DNA of 33,249 nucleotides, taken from assembly GCA_019695305.1 (NCBI GenBank), contig JAIBAG010000026.1, positions 1-33,249 on the forward strand, in the 5' to 3' direction. The stretch comes from a bacterium. GTDB taxonomy: Bacteria; UBA10199; JAIBAG01. Position numbers and translations under genes: made by a program. This document shows positions 2,854 through 30,470 of this stretch, in pieces (position 1 is the first letter of the stretch; each line of letters begins with the position of its first letter). A model generated the notes under the pieces. It had not been told where the DNA came from, made no database searches, and saw only the letters and a program-made list of their open reading frames with translations.

Positions 2854-4638
2854 TCAAGTCTGAATTTTATTAATCGCAATCGACAACTCCAAGAGTTGCT
2901 TGGGATCTACCGTAGATGGCGCTTCACTCATGGGGCATGTGGCCTTTTGAGTTTTGGGGAAGGCAATCACATCGCGAATACTGGTGCTTTGTGTAAGGAG
3001 CATGGCCAAGCGATCTAAACCAAAAGCCAAACCACCATGCGGCGGTGCGCCAAATTGAAGTGCATCGAGCAAGAAACCAAATTTAGCATTGGCTTCTTCA
3101 CGGGTGATTTTTAAGAGATCAAAAACTTTGGACTGCATTTCCTGATCGTGAATACGAATAGAACCACCGCCAATTTCGTTGCCGTTTAGTACCAAATCAT
3201 ACGCATTGGCCCGGCACTTAAGCGGCTCGCTATCCATTAAAGAAATATCTTCGTATTTGCACGAGGTAAACGGGTGATGCACGGCCACCAAACGTTTGGC
3301 TTCATCATCGTAATCAAACATCGGAAAATCGGTGACCCATAAAAAGTTATACTGATTATCATCCAGCATTTTTAACTTAGCCGCCACATGTTCACGCAAA
3401 TTACCCATGGAGTCGTACACAATTTTTTTTTTACCAGCACCAAAGAAAACGATGTCCCCTACTTTTAAATCCAAGCGTTTGGTGAGTTCGGCCTTTTCGG
3501 TTTCGGATAAAAACTTGGTGATAGGCGACTGCCATTCATTTTCTAAAATTTTAATATACGCCAAACCACGCGCACCATAGATACCCACGAATTTGGTAAA
3601 ATCGTCAATTTCGCTACGGCTAAACTTAGCACCGCCGTCTACTTTCATAGCTTGAATGAGTCCCTCGGTAGCTGCCGATTTAAATACCTGGAAGCCCGTG
3701 TTGAGGAAAATATCGTTCACGATTTTAAGCTCCATCCCAAAACGCGTATCGGGCGCATCTAAACCATAACGGTCCATACATTCTTGATACGGCATTTTAA
3801 TGAACGGGGTTTTGAGTTTTATGCCCAAAACTTTTTCCCACACTTCCACCACCAGCCCTTCCATCATGTTCATCACGTCATCGGCGTTTACAAAAGACAT
3901 CTCTACGTCGATCTGCGTAAATTCAGGTTGGCGATCAGCACGCAAATCTTCATCTCTAAAACAACGAGCAATTTGGTAATAACGTTCGTAACCCGATACC
4001 ATGAGCAACTGTTTAAATAATTGAGGCGATTGCGGGAGCGCGTAAAAATGGCCGGGATGCACGCGTGACGGTACCAGATAATCGCGAGCGCCTTCAGGAG
4101 TAGATTTAGTGAGGAACGGTGTTTCAATTTCCAAAAATCCGTTGCGGTTAAAATAATCATGCACAATGCCGGTTACCTTAGAACGTAAACGGAGATTACG
4201 TTGCAGCTGAGGACGACGCAAATCTAAATAACGATACTTAAGACGTACGTCTTCGTTGGTATCAATTTTATCATCAATTAAAAACGGAGGTGTTTTCGAT
4301 TTATTAAAAACTTCCAGTTCCAGCGCTTCAATTTCAATTTCACCGGTAGGTAATTTAGGGTTGGTCATCCCACTGGGACGGTTGCGCACTTTTCCTTTAA
4401 TCCCAATACAATATTCACTACGCACATCGTGAGCGGCTTCATGTGCATTTTTGCTTAAGTCAGGATCAAACACAATTTGAGTCAGACCATCACGGTCGCG
4501 TAAATCGATAAAAATAAGTCCACCATGATCACGGCGGGTATCCACCCATCCAAAAAGAACTACTTCTTCTCCCACATTTTTAGCCGTGAGCTGATTACAA
4601 GTGTGTGTACGTTTAACCTGATTAATGAATGAACCCAT
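2854..4638 (-). CDS. aspS: Aspartyl-tRNA synthetase
   Basis: 594 residues, the usual size of a bacterial AspRS. It charges tRNA-Asp with aspartate in the cytoplasm. An N-terminal OB-fold anticodon-binding domain covers roughly residues 1-105 (LFGWVDTRRDHGGLIFIDLRD). Class II motif 2 is visible near 222-240 (FRDEDLRADRQPEFTQID), a bacterial-type insertion domain follows, and motif 3 lies near 531-550 (GLAFGLDRLAMLL). The start has a TAGGAAAT ribosome site. gatC and gatA elsewhere in this window make it possible that this is a non-discriminating enzyme that also forms Asp-tRNA-Asn, but that cannot be decided by reading. The gene is followed by an A/T-rich spacer without a clear terminator. Confidence 0.97.
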   Translation of the reverse strand: MGSFINQVKRTHTCNQLTAKNVGEEVVLFGWVDTRRDHGGLIFIDLRDRDGLTQIVFDPDLSKNAHEAAHDVRSEYCIGIKGKVRNRPSGMTNPKLPTGEIEIEALELEVFNKSKTPPFLIDDKIDTNEDVRLKYRYLDLRRPQLQRNLRLRSKVTGIVHDYFNRNGFLEIETPFLTKSTPEGARDYLVPSRVHPGHFYALPQSPQLFKQLLMVSGYERYYQIARCFRDEDLRADRQPEFTQIDVEMSFVNADDVMNMMEGLVVEVWEKVLGIKLKTPFIKMPYQECMDRYGLDAPDTRFGMELKIVNDIFLNTGFQVFKSAATEGLIQAMKVDGGAKFSRSEIDDFTKFVGIYGARGLAYIKILENEWQSPITKFLSETEKAELTKRLDLKVGDIVFFGAGKKKIVYDSMGNLREHVAAKLKMLDDNQYNFLWVTDFPMFDYDDEAKRLVAVHHPFTSCKYEDISLMDSEPLKCRANAYDLVLNGNEIGGGSIRIHDQEMQSKVFDLLKITREEANAKFGFLLDALQFGAPPHGGLAFGLDRLAMLLTQSTSIRDVIAFPKTQKATCPMSEAPSTVDPKQLLELSIAINKIQT

Positions 4639-4649
4639 AATTTCCTAGT

Positions 4650-4733
4650 TAACAGCTCGTCATCCTGAACGTAGTGAAGGATCTCCTGTTAAAAGGGGAT
4701 TCTTCGCTCCGCTCAGAATGACAAACGAGTTAA
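4650..4733. repeat. Interspersed palindromic repeat between aspS and the Nif3 gene
   Basis: The two halves are imperfect inverted copies. GTCATCCTGAACGTAGTGAA on the left matches the complement of TTCGCTCCGCTCAGAATGAC on the right with a few mismatches, and an outer TTAAC/GTTAA pair extends it. I recognise this type of sequence as a palindromic repeat scattered in intergenic DNA of many unrelated bacteria. Its outer end overlaps the stop codon of the Nif3 gene. It could form a hairpin in the transcript of either neighbour. Confidence 0.6.
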
Positions 4734-5491
4734 ATATTCGTAAAAACATCCGTTAAACCCCTATATTCCTCAAGATAGATGCTATCGTCAAACAATTCTT
4801 TAAAAATGTTTTTGAGTAATTTGACGGAAATAATTTCCGAATAATAATGTCCTACATCTACCAAACACACATCATTCCGTTTGGCATCCGCTCCATAATG
4901 ATATTTCACATCGCCGGTGATGAAATAAGGGATCTTTTGCGCAATCACCGTCGGTAGTAAGCCAGTGCCGCTGCCGGTACAAAGCGCTACTTTTTTGATT
5001 TTTTGTTTGGGGTTCCCTGAAAAGCGGAGCAAAGGCGTTTTAAATATCTTTTTTACTTTTTTATTAAGAGCAGCAGCCGTCATAGGTTGCGCTAAATTTC
5101 CCACCAAACCACTGCGATGGACGATAGGTTTTAAATTTCTAAGCTTGAGTAAACCAGCATAATAACGACTAACACTAAAGGGAGAATTATCGTGACTTGT
5201 ATGCGCGGTATAGATGGCGATTTTGTGTTTTTTAGCGAAAACAATAAGACTTTTTTCGTACTCTCCTGCTCGCTTGCCAAGATACAGAGGATGATGCGTG
5301 ACGATAAGTTCAAATTTCTTTTTAGCGGCATAACGCAATACGGGGCGCGTGACGTCGTAGACAAAGAGAACGCGGGATACTTTGGGGTTTATACCTTTAA
5401 ATTGGAGGCCGGATCTATCCCAGGTTTCTTGGTAAGTGAGAGGGATCTTTTTTTCGAAAATTTTAACGAGCTGTTTAAGAAGAAGAGACAT
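4730..5491 (-). CDS. Nif3/YbgI-family dinuclear metal-centre protein
   Basis: 253 residues from the chosen start at 5491 (MSLLLKQLVKIFEKK), which matches the usual beginning of the family; an in-frame ATG 13 codons earlier is less likely and has no ribosome site. Members form hexameric toroids with a two-metal site; the biochemical role is not settled, though GTP cyclohydrolase-like activity and roles in metal or redox stress have been proposed. The expected ligands are visible: the His pair in VTHHPL, AHTSHD, and DVGHYYSE near the C terminus. It lies downstream of the tRNA and rpoD but is separated from them by a strong terminator, so it probably has its own promoter. Confidence 0.85.
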   Translation of the reverse strand: MSLLLKQLVKIFEKKIPLTYQETWDRSGLQFKGINPKVSRVLFVYDVTRPVLRYAAKKKFELIVTHHPLYLGKRAGEYEKSLIVFAKKHKIAIYTAHTSHDNSPFSVSRYYAGLLKLRNLKPIVHRSGLVGNLAQPMTAAALNKKVKKIFKTPLLRFSGNPKQKIKKVALCTGSGTGLLPTVIAQKIPYFITGDVKYHYGADAKRNDVCLVDVGHYYSEIISVKLLKNIFKELFDDSIYLEEYRGLTDVFTNI

Positions 5492-5530
5492 GGTTGAAAA
5501 TATGCACTTTTTGCGGAGCAAAAAGTACAA

Positions 5531-5587
5531 TTTTTTTCTAAGTCTTTAGCCTGGCCTTCCAGGCCAGGCTAAAGACTTAGAAAAAAA
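5531..5587. terminator. Perfect 27-bp stem terminator after the CAU tRNA
   Basis: A left arm at 5531-5557 and a right arm at 5561-5587 are perfect reverse complements over 27 bases, with only TCC as loop. The outer part of each arm is seven T or seven A, so both strands end in a T-run. On the minus strand it begins directly after the discriminator base of the tRNA. It closes the rpsU-yqeY-dnaG-rpoD-tRNA transcript. Confidence 0.9.
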
Positions 5588-5661
<74 letters not shown>

Positions 5662-5673
5662 CCTTAATAAAAA

Positions 5674-7497
5674 TTATTGGCCATCAACAAAAGCTTTCAA
5701 CTTTTTAGCGCGGCTAGGATGACGTAATTTGCGCAGCGCTTTAGCCTCAATCTGACGGATACGTTCGCGGGTTACCGAGAAATCGCGACCTACTTCTTCC
5801 AAGGTGTGATCCGATTTTTCACCAATACCAAAACGCATGCGAATTACTTTTTCTTCGCGCGGCGTTAAAGTTTGCAACACTTCGGTGGTTTCATCACCCA
5901 GGTTAAAGTTAATAGCCGCTTCCGACGGCGACAAGATAGACTTGTCTTCAATAAAATCTCCCAAATGACTGTCTTCTTCTTCACCAATGGGCGTTTCAAG
6001 CGAGATGGGTTCTTTGGCAATTTTTAACACCTTGCGCACTTTCTCAAGCGGCATCTCCATCTTTTCGGCAATTTCTTCGGGTGTGGGTTCACGTCCTTTT
6101 TCTTGCACCAAGTAACGCGAGGTACGCACCAACTTGTTGATGGTTTCAATCATATGCACCGGGATACGGATGGTGCGGGCCTGATCGGCAATGGCGCGGG
6201 TAATAGCCTGACGAATCCACCAAGTGGCGTAAGTTGAAAACTTGTAACCACGACGGTATTCAAATTTATCAACCGCTTTCATAAGGCCAATGTTACCTTC
6301 TTGGATAAGATCCAAAAATTGAAGCCCACGGTTGGTATATTTTTTAGCGATACTCACTACGAGACGAAGATTCGCTTCTACCAACTCACCTTTGGCACGA
6401 TCGGCTTCGGATTCGGCGTATTTTAATTCGCGATAGGTGCGTTTTAAATCGTTGATGTTGGCATCAAAGTCGCTTTCAATCTTGCGGTTATTTTTATAAT
6501 GCTCCAGCATCTCGTCGCAAAGCTTGTATACATCGGCTTTGGAAAGTTTTGATTTTTGAACCACCTTACGTTGCAAGTAAGGCGATTTTTTCATCTTGCG
6601 CGCAACGTCAATCGCTTCTTCGGGTTCTAATTTTAAGGTTTCTCGGTGACGTCCAATCAAGCGTTCGCGGCTTTCGATGGTTTCAATCACTTCTTTTAAA
6701 CGGCCAATAAAACGGTTGATAGTGTCACGATTGAAATTGATATCGCGTAAGCACTCAATCATTTTCTTTTGTACTTCGGTGCGTTTTTCTTCGCTCTTTT
6801 TACGGAGCGCTTCACGCATGCGCGGGTTTACCGCTTTTTGATGGTGCTTGTTGTATTCTTTGGTAAGTGTTTTAACCGTGCCCAATAATTTAAGAACGCG
6901 GGTACGATGATCTTCTTCCATCTTACCCAAATCGGGGCCTTCGCCGCTGGCGTTTTCCATTACATCTAATTCTTTAATGATGTCAAAAACGCGGATATTG
7001 TTTTTGGTTAAGGCCTCAAACATATCCATAATTTCCTGGCGGCCAATGGCAGAAGCCAAGATGATTTGCAAAACCTGGTCTTCCCACTTTTCAATATTTT
7101 TGGCGATTTCTACTTCACCTTCACGCGTGAGGAGTGGCACCTGCCCCATTTTACGCAAGTACAAACGCACAGGGTCGTTGGAACGGCCGCCCGTATCAGC
7201 TTCTACAACCGGTTCGGCTTCACCGTCATCATCATCGTCATCGTCATCTTTATCGCTCTTTTTTAAATCTTTCTTTTCTTTGTAATCTTTTTCGTTTTCT
7301 ACAACGTCAATATCCATGCTGTCGAACACGGCCAACACTTCGTCTAACACTTGGGCCGACACGATATCGGGAGGAAGAGTTTTATTGAGATCATCAAAGG
7401 TTAAAAAACCTTTCTCTTTGCCCTTATCAATTAATTTTTGAAGATCTTTGGGGTCAACTGATTTGGGAGCGTTAATGGTAGTCTCGTTTTTTTGCAT
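5674..7497 (-). CDS. rpoD: Primary sigma factor of RNA polymerase (sigma-70)
   Basis: 607 residues, full length for an RpoD. Region 1.1 covers about residues 12-70. It is followed by a highly acidic linker with eight Asp in a row (84-91), then region 1.2 ([20 protein letters not shown]). A non-conserved domain follows, then regions 2-3 ([17 protein letters not shown] near 393-410, [17 protein letters not shown]) and region 4 with the -35 recognition helix ([17 protein letters not shown] near 569-586). It directs transcription of most genes. The ATG has AAAGGAAT upstream, placed right after the dnaG stop, so the two genes are in one operon. The Asp run is encoded by a short GAT/GAC microsatellite-like stretch. 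Confidence 0.98.
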
Positions 7498-7507
7498 GAT
7501 AATTCCT

Positions 7508-9262
7508 TTAATGTTTTATTCCCATTTGCTTCACAGCTTCGCTTTTTTGCGAGAGCAAGCGGGCTATTTCGTCCTGGTCGCCTTTAAGCTCGGCCAAGTG
7601 GATGGCGCTGGTAATTTTAGCCAATTGGTCTTTTAACTTTTGAGCCTTCCAGCGCCCGTAACAATCACTAATCATTTGGGTCAGCTCTTCTTCAGCCGGA
7701 GCCACGGCATCGCCAAAAACAATGCGGCTTAAAATACTTTCGCCGTCTCCCAATGCAGGAGACAATAATTCTTCTACCCGAATCATTCCCTTCTTTTTAA
7801 ATTCATCGGCAATGAGTCCAAAAAGCTTTTTAAGAGTTTCGTCTTCCACCAGTTTTAAATCCTCTTCCACAAAAAGAGACGAAACCCGATCCGGATACTT
7901 GACATAAAGCTCCAACAGATTTCTTTCAAGTGAAATTTTCAATTGATTTCCGGCTTTTACCACGGTTTTTCCCCGATAGGACTCCGGAGGAAAAGAGCGG
8001 CTAGAGGCCTTATTTTCTTCCACCCCCACCAACTTTGAAATTTTGGCCTGATAAGCCTTTTTTTCAATCTCATTGCCAATTTGATCGAGCAAGGGGGCAA
8101 TTTTTTGAGCCGCCCCAACTTTATCGGATGTTTTGGAAGACGCCTCCGAAAAATATTTAAGAAGAAGCGTATCCAGCGCAGGAAGCGCCTCGCGCACCAG
8201 CTTTTGCAAGGCTTCGGCTCCGTTGTGATGGATAAAAGTATCGGGGTCTTCGCCTGGGGGTAAAATAACCAGTTTGGGATGAAAACCTTCTTTTAAGAAA
8301 ATAGAAATAGACCTGAGGCTAGCTTCAAAACCGGCATTGTCGCCGTCAAACAGTAAACAAAAGTTGCGCGAATAGCGCGACAGTTTTTTAACCTGCATGG
8401 GCGTTAAAGCCGTGCCCAGCGGCGCCACCGCCGTGTTAAGGCCCGCTTGATGAAGCGTGATAAGATCCATATACCCTTCTACAATAATAATTTGATCCTT
8501 CTCGCGTATATGTTTTTTGGCCTGAAACAGGCCAAATACCTCGCGTCCTTTACTATAAACGGGTGATTCGGGTGAATTGATGTATTTTGGCTCATCCGAT
8601 TTATCGTTTAAACGACGTCCGCCAAAAGCAATCACACGGCCTTCGGCATCAATGATGGGAAACATCAAGCGATCTCTAAAAAAATCGTAAACACGGCTTT
8701 CTTTTTGGCGCACCAAAGAAAGAGTGAGTGCTTCCTCCATGGGAACACCTTTTTTATTTAAAAAACTGCTCAACCCATCCCAACTGGCCGGCGCATAACC
8801 CAATTTAAAATCGGCCATAATTTCGGGCGAAAGCTTGCGCTTTTGTGTGTAGGCAAAAGCCACTTTGCCTTGGGGTTCGGAGAGTTGCTGATGAAAAAAC
8901 CAACCCGCGTAACGGTTGATACGGTAATAAATTTCGCTATGAGTATCGGCTCCGGAAGTTTCTTTGGTAAAACGCGATAAATCAACACCAGCACGGGCTG
9001 CTAAATCACGCACGGCTTCGGGGAAAGTTTTCCCCTCTTTTTTCATGAGAAAAGAAAACACATTGCCGCCCACACCGCAGCCAAAACAATGAAAGATATT
9101 TTTTTCGGGATTCACCATGAAGGAAGGAGATTTTTCCTGGTGAAAGGGACATAAGCCCTTGTAATTGATACCACTTTTTTTAAGCACCACATGCTCGCCC
9201 ACCACCGAAACAATATCCAGCCGGGTGGCGATGTCATCCAAAATTTCCTGCGGATAAAGCAT
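7508..9262 (-). CDS. dnaG: DNA primase
   Basis: 584 residues. It makes RNA primers at the replication fork together with the DnaB helicase. The N-terminal zinc ribbon uses Cys38, His41, Cys59 and Cys62 (CPFH...CFGC). The RNA polymerase core follows, and the TOPRIM fold is marked by IIIVEGYMD near 255 and LLFDGDNAG near 303. The last 130 residues are the helical, poorly conserved helicase-binding domain. It sits between yqeY and rpoD in the macromolecular-synthesis operon. A double-hairpin repeat separates it from yqeY and would lie in its 5' leader. Confidence 0.97.
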
Positions 9263-9321
9263 GCCTTTTCTTCGGTTAAAAACTTAAAAAGTTGCCTGTT
9301 AATCGAAACTTTTCAATATTT

Positions 9322-9372
9322 CCTTCTCCCCTTGTGGGAGAAGGTGGCTCGCCAAAGGCGAGACGGATGAGG
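9322..9372. repeat. Double-hairpin interspersed repeat between yqeY and dnaG
   Basis: Two perfect hairpins lie in tandem. The first is CCTTCTCCC/GGGAGAAGG (9322-9330 with 9336-9344, five-base loop). The second is CTCGCC/GGCGAG (9348-9353 with 9357-9362, loop AAA). The segment ends in a GGATGAGGGAA tail. The layout matches a repeat type I know from intergenic DNA of many proteobacteria. Here it is inside an operon, so it would be transcribed into the message between yqeY and dnaG. Confidence 0.65.
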
Positions 9373-9375
9373 GAA

Positions 9376-9822
9376 TTATTTGGCCAGAGCGGCCTTCACT
9401 TTTTCAGAGAGAATTTTGCCATCTACACGGCCTGCCGTTTTGTCTTTTAAAGCCTTCATCACAAGCCCCATACCCGCAGGGCCTTGAGCGCCGGTTTCTT
9501 TCATGGCGTCTGCAATCATTTGAGAAAGCTCTTCATCGCTTAAAGATTTTGGTAAAAAAGATTCAATAACCTTAAGCTCACTCTCTTCTTTTTGATACAG
9601 ATCGTCCCGTCCAGCCGCTTTAAACTGATCCATGGAATCTTTGCGCTGCTTCACCATGGTACCCAACACCTGAAAAAACTCGGCTTCGGTCAGCGGCCGT
9701 ATCAGTTCAATTTCCTTATTTTTAACGGTAGACTTAATAAGGCGAATAGCCGCTAAAAGCTCGGTATTTCGAGCTTTCATGGCCTCTTTTAACTGTGTTT
9801 CCAGTTGTTGAAGAATTGACAT
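9376..9822 (-). CDS. yqeY: GatB/YqeY domain protein
   Basis: 148 residues, the normal length of free-standing YqeY proteins. The family shares a helical domain with the tail of GatB, the tRNA-dependent amidotransferase subunit, but the role of the free protein is not established. Characteristic features are the opening helix (LKEAMKARNTELLAAIRLIK), the NKEIEL segment, and the C-terminal helical part with GPAGMGLVMKAL and GRVDGKILSEKVKAAL. It lies between rpsU and dnaG, its usual place in deltaproteobacteria and Firmicutes. No clear ribosome site precedes its ATG, which lies 15 bases after the rpsU stop, so translation may be coupled. Confidence 0.93.
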   Translation of the reverse strand: MSILQQLETQLKEAMKARNTELLAAIRLIKSTVKNKEIELIRPLTEAEFFQVLGTMVKQRKDSMDQFKAAGRDDLYQKEESELKVIESFLPKSLSDEELSQMIADAMKETGAQGPAGMGLVMKALKDKTAGRVDGKILSEKVKAALAK

Positions 9823-9837
9823 TTAAAATATTGAAAA

Positions 9838-10017
9838 TTAACGAACTATTAAACGTTTACGGGCAGCGGCACTCTTCTTTTTAGCTCTAATGGAAGGCTT
9901 TTCATAGTGCTCGCGCTTGCGTACTTCGGCCAAAATTCCGGCTTTTTCGCATTGTTTTTTAAAACGTCTAATTCCGCTTTCAAAAGACTCACCGTCTTTA
10001 ATTGTAACACCTGGCAT
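9838..10017 (-). CDS. rpsU: Small ribosomal subunit protein bS21
   Basis: A 59-residue protein beginning [20 protein letters not shown] and ending in a basic tail ([15 protein letters not shown]). This is the standard bS21 sequence, with its [22 protein letters not shown] middle. It belongs to the small subunit platform near the anti-Shine-Dalgarno end of 16S rRNA. The ATG has a strong GAGGTGA site eight bases upstream. It is the first gene of the macromolecular-synthesis operon with yqeY, dnaG and rpoD, and a consensus-like promoter lies just upstream. Confidence 0.95.
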
Positions 10018-10062
10018 TTCAAATCACCTCTTAAGGATTGATAGGTTTAAAAAAAGTTGTTC

Positions 10063-10092
10063 TTTGTAAGTTATTTAGGCTCGTCTTGTCAA
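10063..10092 (-). promoter_or_regulatory. Likely sigma-70 promoter of the rpsU-dnaG-rpoD operon
   Basis: On the minus strand a perfect TTGACA (10087-10092) is followed after 18 bases by TACAAA (10063-10068). This is about 45 bases upstream of the rpsU start codon and in the only spacer between the HIT gene and rpsU. The position fits an independent promoter for the operon. No terminator separates it from the HIT gene, so read-through from the his cluster is also possible. Confidence 0.5.
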
Positions 10093-10096
10093 GGGC

Positions 10097-10438
10097 TTAT
10101 CCGGCCATGTTACCACCCAATTGCCGCCCGCCCATCACATGGAGATGGAGATGATACACCGTCTGTCCACCCTCCTGGTTACAGTTCATCACGGTACGGT
10201 AACCGGTTTTATCAATTCCCAAATCTTTAGCCACCTGCTGGGCAGCTTTAATCATTTCGCCGGCTAAGATGCTATCGGACAAATCGTTAAGAGTAGCCAC
10301 ATGCTTTTTAGGAATTACCAACACATGCACCGGCGCTTGAGGAGATATATCGTGAAAAGCAACAACGTGCTCGTTTTCCAGAATAAGTTTGCTGGGAATT
10401 TGTTTGGAGGCTATTTTGCAAAAGATGCAATCACTCAT
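10097..10438 (-). CDS. HIT-family (Hint-like) nucleotide-binding protein
   Basis: 113 residues. The histidine triad is visible as HLHLHVMGG near residues 97-105, and the family opening CIFCKIASKQIPSK is intact, including the CxxC. Hint-type enzymes hydrolyse nucleoside phosphoramidates and acyl-adenylates. The ATG overlaps the stop codon of hisI by four bases, so it is translated with the histidine genes. This adjacency suggests that it is expressed together with the pathway, not that it is a biosynthetic enzyme. Confidence 0.92.
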   Translation of the reverse strand: MSDCIFCKIASKQIPSKLILENEHVVAFHDISPQAPVHVLVIPKKHVATLNDLSDSILAGEMIKAAQQVAKDLGIDKTGYRTVMNCNQEGGQTVYHLHLHVMGGRQLGGNMAG

Positions 10439-21863: not shown

Positions 21864-23276
21864 CTAATAACGATAATGATCTGGCTTATAAGGGCCATCT
21901 ACATTTAAATTCAAATACTGCTGCTGCTCAGATGTAAGTTTTGTCAAATTGACTCCTAATTGCTTTAAATGCAAACGGGCCACTTTTTCATCTAAGTGTT
22001 TGGGAAGAACATAAACTTCCTTTTTGTATTTTGAACCGTGAAGAAATAGTTCGATTTGAGCAAGAACCTGGTTGGTAAAGGAGTTACTCATCACAAAGCT
22101 GGGGTGCCCTGTACCGCAACCCAAGTTTACTAAACGACCTTCAGCCAAAACGATGATACGTTTGTTATCAGGAAAAATTACGTGATCAACCTGGGGTTTA
22201 ATATTTTCCCATTTATATTTTTTGATGCTCGCAATATCAATTTCGGAATCGAAGTGACCAATATTACAAACAATAGCCTGATTTTTCATTTTGGCCATGT
22301 GGTCGTGAGTAATTACACGCACGTTACCGGTGGTAGTCACAAAAATATTGGCCTTATCACAGGCTTCTTCCATGGTTACAACACGATAACCTTCCATAGA
22401 AGCCTGCAAAGCACAGATAGGATCAATTTCGGTTACCCAAACAGTAGCACCCAAACCGCGTAAACTTTGCGCACAACCCTTACCCACATCGCCATAACCG
22501 CAAACAACAGCAATTTTGCCGGCAATCATCACATCGGTAGCACGTTTAATGCCATCTACTAAAGACTCACGACAGCCATAGAGATTATCAAATTTGGATT
22601 TTGTTACCGAGTCATTCACGTTGATAGCTGGGAAAGGAAGACTCCCCTCTTTTGCCATTTGATACAGGCGTTTTACACCCGTGGTTGTTTCTTCGGTAAC
22701 ACCTTTAATATTTTTAAGGCGCGAGGAATACCAGTCTTTGGAAACAGCCAAATGTTTTTTAATGGAGTTAAAAAGAGAAATTTCTTCTTCGTTAGTAGGT
22801 TTAGAAATAACAGACGGATCTTTTTCGGCTTTGCTCCCTAAAATAAGAAGCAATGTGGCATCGCCACCGTCATCTAAAATCATGTTAGCACCTTCACCCG
22901 GCCATTCAAAAATACGATGCGTAAATTCCCAGTATTCATCTAATGTTTCGCCCTTATAGGCAAATACCGGTGTGCCTCCTTCGGCAATAGCTGCCGCAGC
23001 ATGATCTTGAGTAGAAAAAATATTACAGCTAGCCCAACGCACATCGGCCCCTAAATCTACCAGGGTTTCAATAAGTACGGCCGTTTGAATAGTCATGTGC
23101 AAAGATCCGGTAATACGGGCACCCTTTAAAGGCTTGGTAGCACGGTATTCTTCGCGGATAGCCATCAGCCCCGGCATTTCGGTTTCGGCAATGGCAATTT
23201 CTTTGCGACCAAAGCCGGCTTGAGAGATATCGGCTACATGATAATCATTATGTTGTTTTTGAGCTTGTGCGGTCAT
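21864..23276 (-). CDS. ahcY: S-adenosylhomocysteine hydrolase
   Basis: 470 residues, the long bacterial form with the extra insert after the N-terminal part. It splits S-adenosylhomocysteine into adenosine and homocysteine and so relieves inhibition of methyltransferases. The NAD-binding loop [20 protein letters not shown] is near 255-274. Substrate-binding segments around [13 protein letters not shown]-like [16 protein letters not shown] and [11 protein letters not shown] are intact, as is the C-terminal KPDHYRY. It lies 17 bases after metK with an AAAAGGAAA site, so the two genes form a methyl-cycle operon. Confidence 0.97.
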
Positions 23277-24548: not shown

Positions 24549-26285
24549 TTATGCCCAAGCCTGACGATAGGTTTTCTCTAAAAAGTCCTCAACATCGTTT
24601 TGGGAAGCAAAATGACTGATTTTATCGTACAAAAAGCGGTCTTCTCTAATATTAAGAGAACGGATGGTATTTTTAATACGAGGAATAGCCATGGGGTACA
24701 TACTAAAACGTCTATAGCCTAAAATAAGCAGAAGAAAAAGATAACGGGGCTCGGTTGCAATTTCGCCACAAAAGGTTACTTCCAAATCGTGTTCTTCGGC
24801 CTTTTTTACAATTTCACGCAACACACGGATAATAGATGGATGATAAGGGTTATATAAATACGCCACATTTTCGTTGGTACGGTCTACCGCTAAAAAATAT
24901 TGAATTAAATCGTTGGAACCTACCGAAATAAAGTCGGCCTCACGCGATAAAAAATCCATTTCATAAACCAACGATGGAACTTCCAGCATAGCACCCAACA
25001 CAATATTTTTTTCTGCTAAAAAACGCGTCTTTTTTAATTTTTCGGCAATTTGCCAAAAATCCTTTTTTAATTTCTTAAATTCCGCAGCGCTTGTAACCAT
25101 GGGAAAACAAATTTTTAACTTTTGTTTTCCATTATACGCTCGTAAAATAGCCCGCACTTGCATTTCAAATAGATTTTTATATTTTGTATATAAACGGATA
25201 GCACGCATTCCCAGTGCAGGATTAGGTTCATCGCCCAAAGGAGAATTTTCAAATATCTTGTCTCCTCCCATATCTAGCGTACGCAAGGTAATCTCACCCA
25301 AATGCGGATGCCCTAATAATTTACAGTAATATCGATACTGAGTTTCTTCATCCCCGTCGCCTTCACCCGTACCAAATAAAAACTCGGTTCTAAATAAACC
25401 AATCCCGCTGCCTCCCAAGCGCTCCACCATCCGTGTTTCTTCATCAAATTCCACATTACCCAACAAATGAACCGTTACACCATCGGCTGTTACCGAATTT
25501 TTACGGGCATCCCGCATCAGTTTTTGATTAGCCGTATCGTGCTGACGCTTTGCGCGGCGATACAAGCTCATCTTTTTAGCCGTAGGATTAACCACCACCT
25601 GGCTTTTATGACCATCGAGTACAACAAAAACATTATTTGGCAATTTATTAAGCACGGCAGCATGAAGATTAAAAAGAGGCAGGCCTAAAGAACGGGCCAT
25701 AATAGCAGTATGTGAGTTATAACCCACCGCCGATGTTAAAACTCCCAATGCATGTTGCCGATTTAGCGAAACAATATCTTCGGGTGATGGATGCGCCATA
25801 GCCAGCAAACGTGACTGAGGTGACAGTTGTGACAAAGCCGGCTTCTTTTTTAAGAGCTTTAATAGAATAGAACTTTCAATAAAATTAATATCATGGATAC
25901 GTTCGCGAATATAACCTTGAGGCAATGTTAAAAAAACATCACGAATTTCGGACACCGTTCGGGATAATGCCCATTCGGCATTGATAGAAAAATTTTCTAT
26001 TTCACGTAGTGTATTATTGACCAACAAATCATCTTCAAACAACAAGGAGTGCGCCGACACCACTGCAGACGATTCAAGATGTGATACTTGATGACTCATT
26101 TGCTCGCTTTGGGTACGGCATTCGCGAACAGCTTTTAAAAAACGTTTTTTTTCAGGTTCAATATCACTATCACACAACCAATGTTTGGGATAATCGGGGG
26201 CTTTGTGTTCAACCACCAATAAACGACCCGAAACCATGCCAGGGCTAATAACTTCGGAGGCTATTTTTTGTTCCTTGAGGCGCAT
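24549..26285 (-). CDS. ptsI: PTS enzyme I (PEP-protein phosphotransferase)
   Basis: 578 residues. It takes phosphate from PEP onto its active His and passes it to HPr. The active-site His192 is in YNSHTAIMARSLG, the PEP-binding barrel follows with GIGLFRTEFLF and LGMRAIRLY, and the active-site Cys is in VTFCGEIATEP near 506. There is no N-terminal GAF domain, so it is of the EI type and not EI-Ntr. It is three bases downstream of ptsH. It is the last gene of the hprK-EIIA-ptsH-ptsI run. No EIIB or EIIC gene is present. Confidence 0.95.
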   Translation of the reverse strand: MRLKEQKIASEVISPGMVSGRLLVVEHKAPDYPKHWLCDSDIEPEKKRFLKAVRECRTQSEQMSHQVSHLESSAVVSAHSLLFEDDLLVNNTLREIENFSINAEWALSRTVSEIRDVFLTLPQGYIRERIHDINFIESSILLKLLKKKPALSQLSPQSRLLAMAHPSPEDIVSLNRQHALGVLTSAVGYNSHTAIMARSLGLPLFNLHAAVLNKLPNNVFVVLDGHKSQVVVNPTAKKMSLYRRAKRQHDTANQKLMRDARKNSVTADGVTVHLLGNVEFDEETRMVERLGGSGIGLFRTEFLFGTGEGDGDEETQYRYYCKLLGHPHLGEITLRTLDMGGDKIFENSPLGDEPNPALGMRAIRLYTKYKNLFEMQVRAILRAYNGKQKLKICFPMVTSAAEFKKLKKDFWQIAEKLKKTRFLAEKNIVLGAMLEVPSLVYEMDFLSREADFISVGSNDLIQYFLAVDRTNENVAYLYNPYHPSIIRVLREIVKKAEEHDLEVTFCGEIATEPRYLFLLLILGYRRFSMYPMAIPRIKNTIRSLNIREDRFLYDKISHFASQNDVEDFLEKTYRQAWA

Positions 26286-26288
26286 ATG

Positions 26289-26561
26289 CTAATCCTCATT
26301 AAAACCCGCCTTCACCAATTCTTCTAACTTTTTAACAGCTTCTTTGGCATCATTGCCTTCGGCTACTATTTTAATTTTTGATCCTTTGGCGGCCGCCAGC
26401 ATTAAAAGGCCCATAATACTTTTGCCGTTTACAGTGGTATCATCCTTTACTACCGAAATATCACTATCAAAACGTCCCGATAATTTTACAAAAGTAGCAG
26501 AAGCCCGTGCGTGCAAACCTAACTTATTTACAATTTTTACAGTTACTTCTTGTTTTGGCAT
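26289..26561 (-). CDS. ptsH: Phosphocarrier protein HPr
   Basis: 90 residues. Both control sites are intact: the catalytic His17 in NKLGLHARA (His15 in the E. coli count) and the regulatory Ser48 in NGKSIMGLLMLAA (Ser46). Because HPr kinase is encoded in the same run, the protein should be modified at both positions. Its start codon touches the stop codon of the EIIA gene, and ptsI follows after three bases. An AAAGGGGA site precedes the ATG. Confidence 0.96.
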   Translation of the reverse strand: MPKQEVTVKIVNKLGLHARASATFVKLSGRFDSDISVVKDDTTVNGKSIMGLLMLAAAKGSKIKIVAEGNDAKEAVKKLEELVKAGFNED

Positions 26562-26959
26562 TACGTCCCCTTTTTGGAAACCACACGTCGGATATGATCA
26601 CGGCCGTAGTTTTCGATAAACGGCACTAAATCGTTTAACGAAAGAGTTTGATGAAGAGTAGACAGCTTAACGAGCATGGGTAAATTAAAACCAGTCAGTA
26701 ACTCAACCGAGCCCTTTTTTAAAAACTGCATACACACGTTACATTGTGTAGAACCGTAAAAATCGGTAAGCAACAACACTCCCCTACCCCCATCCACCTG
26801 ATGAATAGCTTTTTTAAGACTAGCCTTCATTTTAGAAACAGGCTGTCCGGGTTTAAGGACAAGGCTCTTAATGCCATTTGTTTTACACAACAAACGCCTG
26901 GCAGTTTTAAGCATTTCGTCAGCTTCTTTGTTTTCGGTAATAAGAACAATTCCTATCAT
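26561..26959 (-). CDS. EIIA-Man-family protein without the phospho-accepting histidine
   Basis: 132 residues. It aligns without gaps to the N-terminal half of EIIA-Man proteins: IGIVLIT-E-N...EMLKTARRLL, then GRGVLLLTDFYGSTQ and FNLPMLVKL. In the family the active His follows the IVIGT or IVIVT strand, as in the THG of E. coli ManX. Here that position is Glu9. The conserved GGSP after the strand-4 Asp (Asp66 here) is also changed to YGSTQ. It therefore should not carry phosphate in the normal way, and Glu could mimic a charged state. Its place between hprK and ptsH is the normal one for EIIA-Man in deltaproteobacteria. A signalling role is an inference. Confidence 0.85.
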   Translation of the reverse strand: MIGIVLITENKEADEMLKTARRLLCKTNGIKSLVLKPGQPVSKMKASLKKAIHQVDGGRGVLLLTDFYGSTQCNVCMQFLKKGSVELLTGFNLPMLVKLSTLHQTLSLNDLVPFIENYGRDHIRRVVSKKGT

Positions 26960-26979
26960 CCATATCTCCTTAAAAGCGG

Positions 26980-27933
26980 TTATTCGCCCGGTTCGTTTTC
27001 GGTTTCCTTGTCAAGCTGGTCATCCAGCCTTCTCGCAAAAATACGGGATGAATAATGTCCCTGGGCCTTCAGCAAATTATTGCGTGCGGCCACTTCTACA
27101 ATGGTGGTCACATTCCTTCCCGGTGATACGGGTAGTTTTATATAGGGGATAGGCACATCCAAAATATTATACTTATGCTCGTCTAACCCCAAACGATCGT
27201 ATTCGTAATTAGGATTCCATTCTACTAACTCAATCACAATTTCAATAATTTTTTTATCACGAATGGCAGCAATACCAAATAAATCGCGGATATTAAGAAT
27301 GCCCAAACCTCTAATTTCGAGATGATGCCGCAATAACTCGGTACTCGAGCCATACAAGGTGGTGGGCGGTCTTTTTGCAATATGCACCATATCGTCTGCT
27401 ACCAAACGATGTCCTTTTAAAACCAGATCAAGGGCACATTCGCTTTTACCAATGCCGCTTTTACCAATAATTAAAATACCCACACCAAATACATCTATTA
27501 ATACCCCATGCACAGTAGTGGAAATGGTAAGGCGTTCTTCCAAAAAGCGCGAAACCCGATTGATAAAAGTAGAGGTAATAAGGCTTGTCTGAAACAGAGG
27601 GATCCCTTTTTTATTAGCCTCATCTAACAAGGCCTGGGGAGGCTCTATGCCACGCGTGATAATAAAACAGGCCACTTCTACTTCACAAATTTTTTCCACT
27701 ATTTTTTTAAGGCGAGCATCTTCTAGAGATTTTAAATAAGTAAGCTCCGATTTACCCAAAACCTGAACACGCCCCGGATGCAGTTTAGTTGTGTCACCAA
27801 TAAGAGCAAGGCCGGGCTTTTGAATGCGCGGAATATGGATCTTTTTTTTAAGCCCCTTTTTACCGGCCAGCAGCACCAGTTCTAAATGAATGCTTTTATC
27901 GTTTAAAAGTTCGGATACAGGCAAAGAAAGCAT
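26980..27933 (-). CDS. hprK: HPr kinase/phosphorylase
   Basis: 317 residues. It phosphorylates HPr on the regulatory serine and removes the phosphate again. The N-terminal domain covers about 1-130. The catalytic domain has His142 in TVHGVLIDVFGVG, Walker A GKSGIGKS (157-164), the LVADDMV segment and the signature LEIRGLGILNIRDLFG. It is followed after 20 bases by the EIIA gene. In many related genomes rapZ lies in this gap; here it is absent. ptsN lies 38 bases upstream. Confidence 0.95.
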   Translation of the reverse strand: MLSLPVSELLNDKSIHLELVLLAGKKGLKKKIHIPRIQKPGLALIGDTTKLHPGRVQVLGKSELTYLKSLEDARLKKIVEKICEVEVACFIITRGIEPPQALLDEANKKGIPLFQTSLITSTFINRVSRFLEERLTISTTVHGVLIDVFGVGILIIGKSGIGKSECALDLVLKGHRLVADDMVHIAKRPPTTLYGSSTELLRHHLEIRGLGILNIRDLFGIAAIRDKKIIEIVIELVEWNPNYEYDRLGLDEHKYNILDVPIPYIKLPVSPGRNVTTIVEVAARNNLLKAQGHYSSRIFARRLDDQLDKETENEPGE

Positions 27934-27971: not shown

Positions 27972-28430
27972 TTAGATTTTATCGTCTTCGGCAATTAACA
28001 CGTCGTAAAGCTGAATATCCTTGGCTTCCAATAAACGATGGCGGATTTCTTCGCCCTTTAACAAACGTGACAGGCGGGCTAAAGCCTGTAAATGATTACC
28101 CACCACGTTTTCAGGAGCGAGTAATACAAAGAAGAGGGAGGCTAGTTTGTGATCGTGGGACTGAAATTCGATACCACTCTTAGAACGACCAAAAAAGGAA
28201 ACAATCTGGTTTAATCCTGCTATTTTGCCATGAGGTATAGCGACGCCATACCCAACCCCCGTGGAACCCAATTTCTCGCGTTCCAGTAGCACCCTGAGCA
28301 CATCTTCTGCTTTGAGACCGGGGTATTGTGCAGCTGTTAAACGGGAGAGCTCATCCAGTACATCTTTTTTATCGGTTGAAACCAAATCTCCGCAAACGGC
28401 TTCTTTTTTAAGAATATCTCTCAGTTTCAT
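27972..28430 (-). CDS. ptsN: PTS EIIA-Ntr-like protein
   Basis: 152 residues, the fructose/nitrogen-type EIIA fold. The phospho-accepting His67 is intact in GVAIPHGKI, as are GSTGVGYG and the C-terminal LARLSRLLKGEEIR. In proteobacteria this protein is a regulator (potassium transport, sensor kinases, sigma-54-linked genes) and transfers no sugar. It is placed between hpf and hprK, close to rpoN. An intrinsic-type hairpin ends only about 15 bases upstream of its ATG, and no ribosome site is visible in that space. Confidence 0.94.
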   Translation of the reverse strand: MKLRDILKKEAVCGDLVSTDKKDVLDELSRLTAAQYPGLKAEDVLRVLLEREKLGSTGVGYGVAIPHGKIAGLNQIVSFFGRSKSGIEFQSHDHKLASLFFVLLAPENVVGNHLQALARLSRLLKGEEIRHRLLEAKDIQLYDVLIAEDDKI

Positions 28431-28540: not shown

Positions 28541-28882
28541 TTAGAAAAACGGAGCCTCCATTTCGTCATTTTGAGCCTTGTCATGAGACTTGTTATGATG
28601 GCTCTTTACAATTTCTTTATGTTTTTTAAGCTGACGCTCCATCTTGTGTACAGCGCTATCGATAGAAGCATACATATTATCACTGCATTCCAGGGCTGTT
28701 GCCGAAAAATGCGGTGAATTAATCGTTATTTCACAAGAATGACGAATTTTCTCCACAAACAAAATCACATGACAATCGATGGGATCTTTTAAATACCGCT
28801 TCAACTTCTCCACCTTATCTTCAACATGGTTTTTTAAGGACGGCGTTAACTCCATATGACGGCACGTAACATGAACGTTCAT
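28541..28882 (-). CDS. hpf: Ribosome hibernation-promoting factor (short form)
   Basis: 113 residues, the short HPF/YfiA type without the dimerisation tail of the long form. It binds the 30S decoding region when growth stops. The fold pattern is intact: VHVTCRHMELTPSLKNHVEDKVEKLKRY, then ILFVEKIRHSCEITI and the NMYASIDSAVHKMERQLKKHK helix. The last 20 residues are polar and His/Lys-rich. It follows rpoN in the typical rpoN-hpf order, with an AAGGAG site. A 124-base spacer to rpoN may hold a promoter of its own. Confidence 0.94.
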   Translation of the reverse strand: MNVHVTCRHMELTPSLKNHVEDKVEKLKRYLKDPIDCHVILFVEKIRHSCEITINSPHFSATALECSDNMYASIDSAVHKMERQLKKHKEIVKSHHNKSHDKAQNDEMEAPFF

Positions 28883-29006: not shown

Positions 29007-30470
29007 TTAAAAAAGTCTCTTGCGTTTAGAAGAAGGTAAAATATTGAGCATTTCTCTATACTTAGCAACGGTACGGCGCGCAATTTCAATATTGGATTTT
29101 TTTAACATGTCTACAATTGTAATATCAGAGAGCGGATCTTTAGGATCTTCAGCCGCAACAATGGCGCGTATTTTTTCTTTTACCGATTCACTAGCCACAT
29201 CCTGCTGGCCGCTGGAAGAAGCCAAACCATTATTAAAAAAGTATTTTAGTTCAAAAATACCCTGAGGCGTGTGCATGTATTTATTGCTGGTTGCACGCGA
29301 TACGGTAGACTCGTGCACACCAATAGACTCGGCCACATCCTTTAAAATCATGGGTTTTAAGGCTTCTACGCCACGTTCCAAGAACTCACGCTGAAATTTA
29401 ACAATACATTTTGATACGCGATATAAAGTGCGTTGACGCTGATGAATACTTTTAATAAGCCATAAAGCACTTTTTAATTTTTCCTGCACATAATCTTTGG
29501 CTTTATCGCCTGAAGCCTCACCACTTAACATACCCTTATAATAGCGACTAACCTGTAAGCGAGGTAGTCCGTCTTCATTTAACACAATGGCAAAATCGTT
29601 CCCCACCTTCATCACATACACATCCGGCGTAATATACTGCGTGTCGCTTGCTCCAAAGGGCCGACCCGGCTTAGGTTCCATTTCAGAAATATATTGGGCA
29701 AGCTGGATAATTTTTTTGAGAGGTAATTTGGTTTTGCGAGCAATAGCGGGATAATCACGCTTTTCAACTAAAGGCAGATAGTTTTCAATAATGTCAATCA
29801 ACTGTGCTTTTTCGATGCCTGTATAATAACGACATTGTAGTTTTAAACATTCCTTTAAATCACGAGCACCCACACCAGCAGGATCAAAATCTTGGATAAC
29901 ACTGAGTGAATCATCCAAATCGTCCACGGTTACACTGTTTGCTTCGGCAATTTCATCCAAACTTTGGGTTAAATATCCATTGTCATCTAAATAACCCAAA
30001 AGCAAATACCCCAACTCTTCTTCTTTTTCGGTAACGGCATTCATTTTTAACTGCCATTCCAAATGATCGCGCAAAGTATTGGGGCGCGTGGTCATGTTTT
30101 CGTAATTGGGCAAATCATCAGGACTAAACGAACGGGCTTCTTCTCCGGGAGCATTATAAGTGCCAATATAGTTTTCCCAATCAAACTCTTTGGGTTCTTT
30201 TAAATCGCCGTCTTTGTGGAGTTCTTCCTGGGCTTCGTGAGATTTATCGGGGGCCGCTTCAGACTCAATTTCCTTCTCCATCTCGGGAGGAACCTCTTCC
30301 TGCTCGGCCGTACTCATTTCCTCCAAAACAGGGTTTTCCAACAGCTCATTTTGAACCATATCCACCAGTTCGGTGCGAGAAAGTTGAAGTAATTTAATAG
30401 CTTGCTGCAGTTGTGGTGTAATAACCAGCTGCTGGCTAAGCTTTAGACTTTGACGTAATTCAATGGCCAC
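29007..30470 (-). CDS. rpoN: RNA polymerase sigma-54 factor
   Basis: 487 residues, a complete sigma-54. The Gln/Leu-rich region I opens the protein (LRQSLKLSQQLVITPQLQQA), an acidic region II follows to about 110, then the core-binding domain. The HTH region contains AESIGVHESTVSRATSNKY, and the RpoN box ARRTVAKYREMLNI lies near the C terminus. It serves genes with -24/-12 promoters that need an AAA+ activator. The start codon is GTG in the context GGGGGATTC-GTG. Downstream is hpf; the lipopolysaccharide transport genes often found upstream are absent, and pyrG is there instead. Confidence 0.97.
   Translation of the reverse strand: MAIELRQSLKLSQQLVITPQLQQAIKLLQLSRTELVDMVQNELLENPVLEEMSTAEQEEVPPEMEKEIESEAAPDKSHEAQEELHKDGDLKEPKEFDWENYIGTYNAPGEEARSFSPDDLPNYENMTTRPNTLRDHLEWQLKMNAVTEKEEELGYLLLGYLDDNGYLTQSLDEIAEANSVTVDDLDDSLSVIQDFDPAGVGARDLKECLKLQCRYYTGIEKAQLIDIIENYLPLVEKRDYPAIARKTKLPLKKIIQLAQYISEMEPKPGRPFGASDTQYITPDVYVMKVGNDFAIVLNEDGLPRLQVSRYYKGMLSGEASGDKAKDYVQEKLKSALWLIKSIHQRQRTLYRVSKCIVKFQREFLERGVEALKPMILKDVAESIGVHESTVSRATSNKYMHTPQGIFELKYFFNNGLASSSGQQDVASESVKEKIRAIVAAEDPKDPLSDITIVDMLKKSNIEIARRTVAKYREMLNILPSSKRKRLF

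Follow-up and report, generated by a model that had tools for sequence, protein, structure and literature searches.

A regulatory EIIA-Man protein (ManX) with glutamate in place of the phospho-accepting histidine throughout a bacterial order

Background

The role of ManX proteins apart from sugar transport, and the question of which of their phospho-forms signals, are only partly known. Among proteins of the phosphotransferase system (PTS), Crh, a paralogue of HPr in Bacillus, carries Gln in place of His15, and the H10E variant of E. coli IIA-Man (PDB 2jzn) was reportedly made as a mimic of the phosphorylated protein, glutamate being an imperfect mimic of phospho-histidine. SucA, a partner of ManX in Brucella, is its known target in alpha-proteobacteria. 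Stand-alone ManX proteins of alpha-proteobacteria serve as terminal phospho-acceptors of NPr (PMC13104625, PMC2937029), and in Brucella NPr phosphorylates ManX in vitro. In Rhizobium the active form of ManX is the unphosphorylated one, and an H9A variant is able to complement in vivo (PMC7617929). The complementation by H9A implies that the output of ManX does not require phosphate; ManX would act by binding and phosphate would merely tune this action, a tuning that would be gone in the order treated here. Unphosphorylated Crh, for its part, inhibits MgsA (PMC13130090). With regard to the active site of EIIA-Man, the equivalent of Asp66 is reported to act as a general base in orienting and activating His10, Asn75, Gly94 and Asn96 (S. 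pneumoniae/E. coli numbering) are the proposed contacts to HPr, and Ser72 positions the phosphoryl group (PMC7587183).

The window analysed here, i.e. the whole stretch of DNA of 33,249 nucleotides, contains a manX-like gene in a cluster of PTS genes. The features referred to below are the following (window coordinates):

24549..26285, minus strand: ptsI, Enzyme I (EI), His192 kept (TIGR01417, 5.9e-118; active-site alignment)
26289..26561, minus strand: ptsH, HPr, His17 and Ser48 kept (PF00381, 2.5e-29; order alignment)
26561..26959, minus strand: manX-like EIIA-Man gene, 132 aa with Glu9 (open reading frame; PF03610, 3.1e-15; AlphaFold model)
26738..26764, minus strand: loop D66-F-Y-G-S-T-Q-C-N74 in place of D-x-F-G-G-T/S-P-x-N (alignment of the order against outside sequences)
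26933..26935, minus strand: codon 9 of manX, GAA (Glu), where the family has the phospho-acceptor His (7/7 members of the order, against His in 74/74 others)
26980..27933, minus strand: hprK, HPr Ser kinase/phosphorylase, Walker A motif GKSGIGKS kept (TIGR00679, 6.8e-111)
27972..28430, minus strand: ptsN, EIIA-Ntr, His67 kept (PF00359, 3.9e-28)
28541..28882, minus strand: hpf, ribosome hibernation factor (PF02482, 9.3e-27; synteny)
29007..30470, minus strand: rpoN, sigma-54 (open reading frame, named from sequence; class-wide synteny)

The manX gene and its product

The manX frame starts 20 bases past the end of hprK, is preceded just upstream by the ribosome-binding site AAGGAG, and its TAA overlaps the ATG of ptsH (TAATG). 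Its product belongs to the Pfam family EIIA-man (PF03610), which it matches over residues 3-113 with a score of 56.8 bits (curated cut-off 21.4), and falls short of TIGR00824 (mannose/fructose/sorbose PTS IIA), where it reaches 50.5 bits and the curated threshold is 98.35. The AlphaFold model, built with 33 homologues (pLDDT 94.1, pTM 0.88), has the EIIA-Man fold: its top PDB matches are EIIA-Man proteins, 1pdo among them (TM 0.87/0.89, rmsd 1.6). The match to the solved EIIA-Man chains is collinear from the N-terminus.

This ManX is the sole match to PF03610 in the genome, which rejects the idea that it is a paralogue of a true EIIA-Man encoded elsewhere. A role in sugar transport together with EIIB-Man is likewise rejected, because EIIB-Man (PF03830) has no match in the genome. 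By synteny, the gene is an orthologue of the regulatory ManX/EIIA-Man genes found in rpoN-hpf-ptsN-hprK-manX-ptsH-ptsI clusters, and the Glu9 finding is a matter of an order-wide regulatory ManX, not of a sugar-transport EIIA.

Glutamate at position 9

Our sample of the host order comprises eight genomes in five families. One of them (G005) has no EIIA-Man match; the orthologues in the other seven span all five families and without exception carry Glu9, encoded by GAA. At the same position His is found in 24/24 orthologues from the rest of the class and in 85/85 EIIA-Man domains sampled outside it. In the aligned set, His occurs in 0/7 sequences within the order and in 74/74 outside (Fisher p = 3e-10, a value that is descriptive only, as the sequences are related). 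The His at position 9/10 by which a phospho-accepting EIIA-Man is recognised is lacking in all seven. The original prediction, made from this one stretch of DNA, had numbered the replaced residue correctly and had asked whether Glu is fixed in a clade or confined to a single sequence; fixation in the order, with His outside it, answers this. A sequencing error or an oddity of one genome is rejected on the same grounds, all the more since a change from His to Glu needs two base substitutions.

In a free tree, one Glu9 sequence (from G001) is placed beside a long-branched His9 sequence, as if Glu had arisen twice. The tree in which the order is constrained to one clade has the better likelihood and is not rejected (p-AU 0.59). 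One origin of Glu is therefore preferred over two independent ones, as the simplest reading.

For most pairs within the order, identity is near random at fourfold sites but reaches 60-85% at second codon positions, so that the gene is under purifying selection. Over a tree length of 4.7 substitutions per site, 15 of the 132 columns are invariant in the order, Glu9 and Gln72 among them, and the site rate at position 9 is zero. That the gene is missing in G005 indicates that manX is not essential.

The loop following position 66 had also been singled out in the original prediction as altered from GGSP, and the alignment specifies the change as GGTP/GGSP to GSTQ. Position 72 is Gln in 7/7 members of the order, against Pro in 71/74 sequences outside; residue 70 is Ser or Ala, against Gly in 67/74. 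Asp66 is retained in 4/7 members, including the ManX of the window, against 74/74 outside, and the remaining three carry His, Asn or Glu, a drift to be expected if the phosphotransfer chemistry is gone. The equivalents of the reported HPr-contact positions Asn75, Gly94 and Asn96 (Asn74, Gly90 and Asn92, a match of numbering that we read off alignments) and of the phosphoryl-positioning Ser72 (Thr/Ser71) are kept in 7/7 members, although conservation of Asn74, Gly90 and Asn92 may reflect the fold or the dimer rather than binding of HPr. Judged from the alignments, the pattern is that of an active site whose phosphotransfer chemistry has been lost and whose binding face has been kept. We infer that Glu9 ManX has almost certainly ceased to accept phosphate and that it would continue to bind HPr.

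The relay and its gene neighbourhood

The residues through which the other proteins of the relay act are intact in the window (His17 and Ser48 of HPr, His192 of EI, His67 of PtsN), at the positions given for them in advance; in the order, the His and Ser of HPr and the His of EI and PtsN are kept in every genome whose locus carries the respective gene. The loss is thus specific to ManX, as had been proposed; its partners in the relay are intact in most members of the order. Members of the class, whether they have His9 or Glu9, share the gene order pyrG-rpoN-hpf-ptsN-hprK-(rapZ)-eiiA-ptsH-ptsI-metK.

Several further observations concern this neighbourhood. The phosphorylation-site motif of the operon EI begins V-G-Y-N-S-H, and this EI is only 37-40% identical to that of its order-mates, where most neighbouring genes reach 55-75%; it appears to be evolving unusually fast. 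In most genomes of the order the operon EI is accompanied by a further EI-type match, in frames of some 800 codons or longer, as would suit a PtsP-like EI. In G001, G004 and G005 the gene rapZ separates ptsN/hprK from eiiA or ptsH; it is absent at window positions 26960-26980, and no match to it (PF03668) was found in genomes G000, G002, G003, G006 and G007. Finally, ahcY (window 21864-23276) is 57-60% identical to its counterparts in the distant class members G011 and G015, against 39-40% to those of its order-mates, which suggests two types of this gene that may have been exchanged or differentially kept.

A probable binding regulator without a phosphate switch

The explanation that we consider probable, if by no means assured, is an ancestral uncoupling of ManX from the relay, which would have left a non-switchable binding regulator held in a phospho-like state by Glu9. 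In the ancestor of the order, ManX would have lost phosphate acceptance as His9 became Glu, Gly70 became Ser or Ala and Pro72 became Gln, but its fold and the reported HPr-contact positions were kept. Most of the order retains the EI/HPr/PtsN relay, so that PtsN should still be switchable by phosphate, and ManX should not. ManX would then most likely be a constitutive binding regulator: the carboxylate of Glu9, near the N-terminus of the helix that begins at Thr71, would hold the protein in a phospho-like conformation, in which it would act on a protein target and/or on HPr without responding to PEP. The suggestion of a pseudo-EIIA in the original prediction is supported by the order-wide fixation of Glu9 and by the intact relay partners. 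A locked phospho-like state is a plausible fit to the fixed Glu, and titration of HPr by ManX is plausible as well. SucA is not supported as a universal target of ManX: only part of the class has full-length SucA, its distribution does not follow that of manX, and several genomes of the order lack it although they retain the gene.

Alternatively, it is possible that only the inability of position 9 to be phosphorylated matters, and that ManX is locked in a dephospho-like state, constitutively unphosphorylated and active as is the Rhizobium H9A protein. The activity of unphosphorylated ManX in R. leguminosarum and the complementation of a manX mutant by H9A (PMC7617929) are in line with such a state, as is the relaxation of several catalytic positions in the order. 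Position 9, however, should then drift as Asp66 does, yet it is Glu in 7/7 members with a site rate of zero, and Thr/Ser71, which positions the phosphate, is kept; we therefore regard a dephospho-like regulator as unlikely. In the order, position 9 is never Ala, Gln or Asp. Fixation as Glu instead of drift speaks for a requirement for the carboxylate itself, which in the simplest case would imitate the phosphoryl group beside Thr71 and the helix N-terminus. Taken to its full extent, the phospho-like reading would make ManX an order-wide natural phosphomimetic EIIA, a constant signal binding HPr and its target regardless of PEP while PtsN is still switchable, a proposal that we put forward tentatively.

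The replacement of His by Glu might also have been the first step in a slow decay of the PTS module, with little function left to ManX. Such a loss can be followed in family f2, in which ptsI/EI is gone from the locus (L038 of G001, 4000-7000; L060 of G005, 7900-10200), hprK is absent in G001 and cut in G005 to a 188-aa C-terminal kinase domain, and G005 is also without eiiA. In this family the module appears to be eroding stepwise, and the low identity of EI within the order (37-40%) points in the same direction. As an account of the Glu9 proteins, decay has a small chance, because the manX frame is intact and under purifying selection in seven genomes across five families, with Glu9 and Gln72 invariant.

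Smaller still is the chance that the site has been repurposed for a ligand, a metal or redox chemistry, with Glu9, the variable residue 66 (D/H/N/E) and Cys73-x-x-Cys76 forming a new binding or thiol site. The cysteine pair (window 26732-26743) does open helix 71-77 in the model, i.e. it lies at the helix N-terminus, and Cys76 is present in 7/7 and Cys73 in 6/7 members of the order. However, the Glu9-bearing protein of G001 has Thr73, and both cysteines are found in the His9 class proteins L014, L028 and L031; the motif hence does not track with Glu, and it is rejected as an innovation tightly linked to Glu9.

That ManX is an ordinary EIIA accepting phosphate on Cys76 or on another His, the latter a possibility allowed for in the original prediction, is hardly credible despite the intact relay partners and the invariance of Cys76 in the order, since no His is conserved there (H53, H103 and H122 all vary in the order alignment), positions 66, 70 and 72 of the catalytic site are changed, and Cys76 is common among His9 proteins.

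Comparison with known systems

A literature search, with subscription papers mostly outside its coverage, returned no described non-phosphorylatable EIIA and nothing on H10E. The ManX proteins of the alpha-proteobacterial PTS-Ntr (Rhizobium, Brucella) resemble the protein described here in being stand-alone EIIA-Man without EIIB/C/D, encoded next to hprK and the gene for HPr/NPr, and in having PtsN as a sister output (PMC13104625, PMC2937029). They differ in that His9 is their proposed acceptor and phosphorylation controls their output, whereas the host order has Glu9 throughout; moreover, the host cluster adjoins rpoN and has its own EI, unlike the alpha-proteobacterial ManX clusters. The Glu9 lineage with its kept relay can be regarded as a natural experiment, which suggests that ManX is useful without switching and points to binding as the core of what it does.

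With the regulatory EI-R cluster of Xanthomonadales and other Proteobacteria the host shares its gene neighbourhood (rpoN, ptsN, hprK, IIA-Man, ptsH, ptsI; PMC2405797). The passages on this cluster describe no loss of the phospho-acceptor His, in contrast to the situation in the host order.

The H10E variant of E. coli IIA-Man (2jzn), which is among the closest PDB chains to ManX, has the same fold (TM 0.87) and likewise Glu at the phospho-acceptor position. Its change was engineered, whereas the Glu of the host order is natural, and positions 70 and 72 have changed along with it. If the phosphomimetic reading is true, evolution has fixed the same change of His to Glu that was introduced in E. 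coli, and a PTS-Ntr-type relay with two outputs has had one of them turned into a constant signal. Glu9, Ala9 and His9 form a ready set of variants that bears on whether Glu mimics phospho-histidine in the EIIA-Man fold.

Crh, as ManX appears to be, is a PTS protein outside the histidine relay that regulates by binding. It sits beside an intact HPr, however, and is still Ser-switched by HPrK, whereas in the host order it is the only copy of EIIA-Man itself that has changed.
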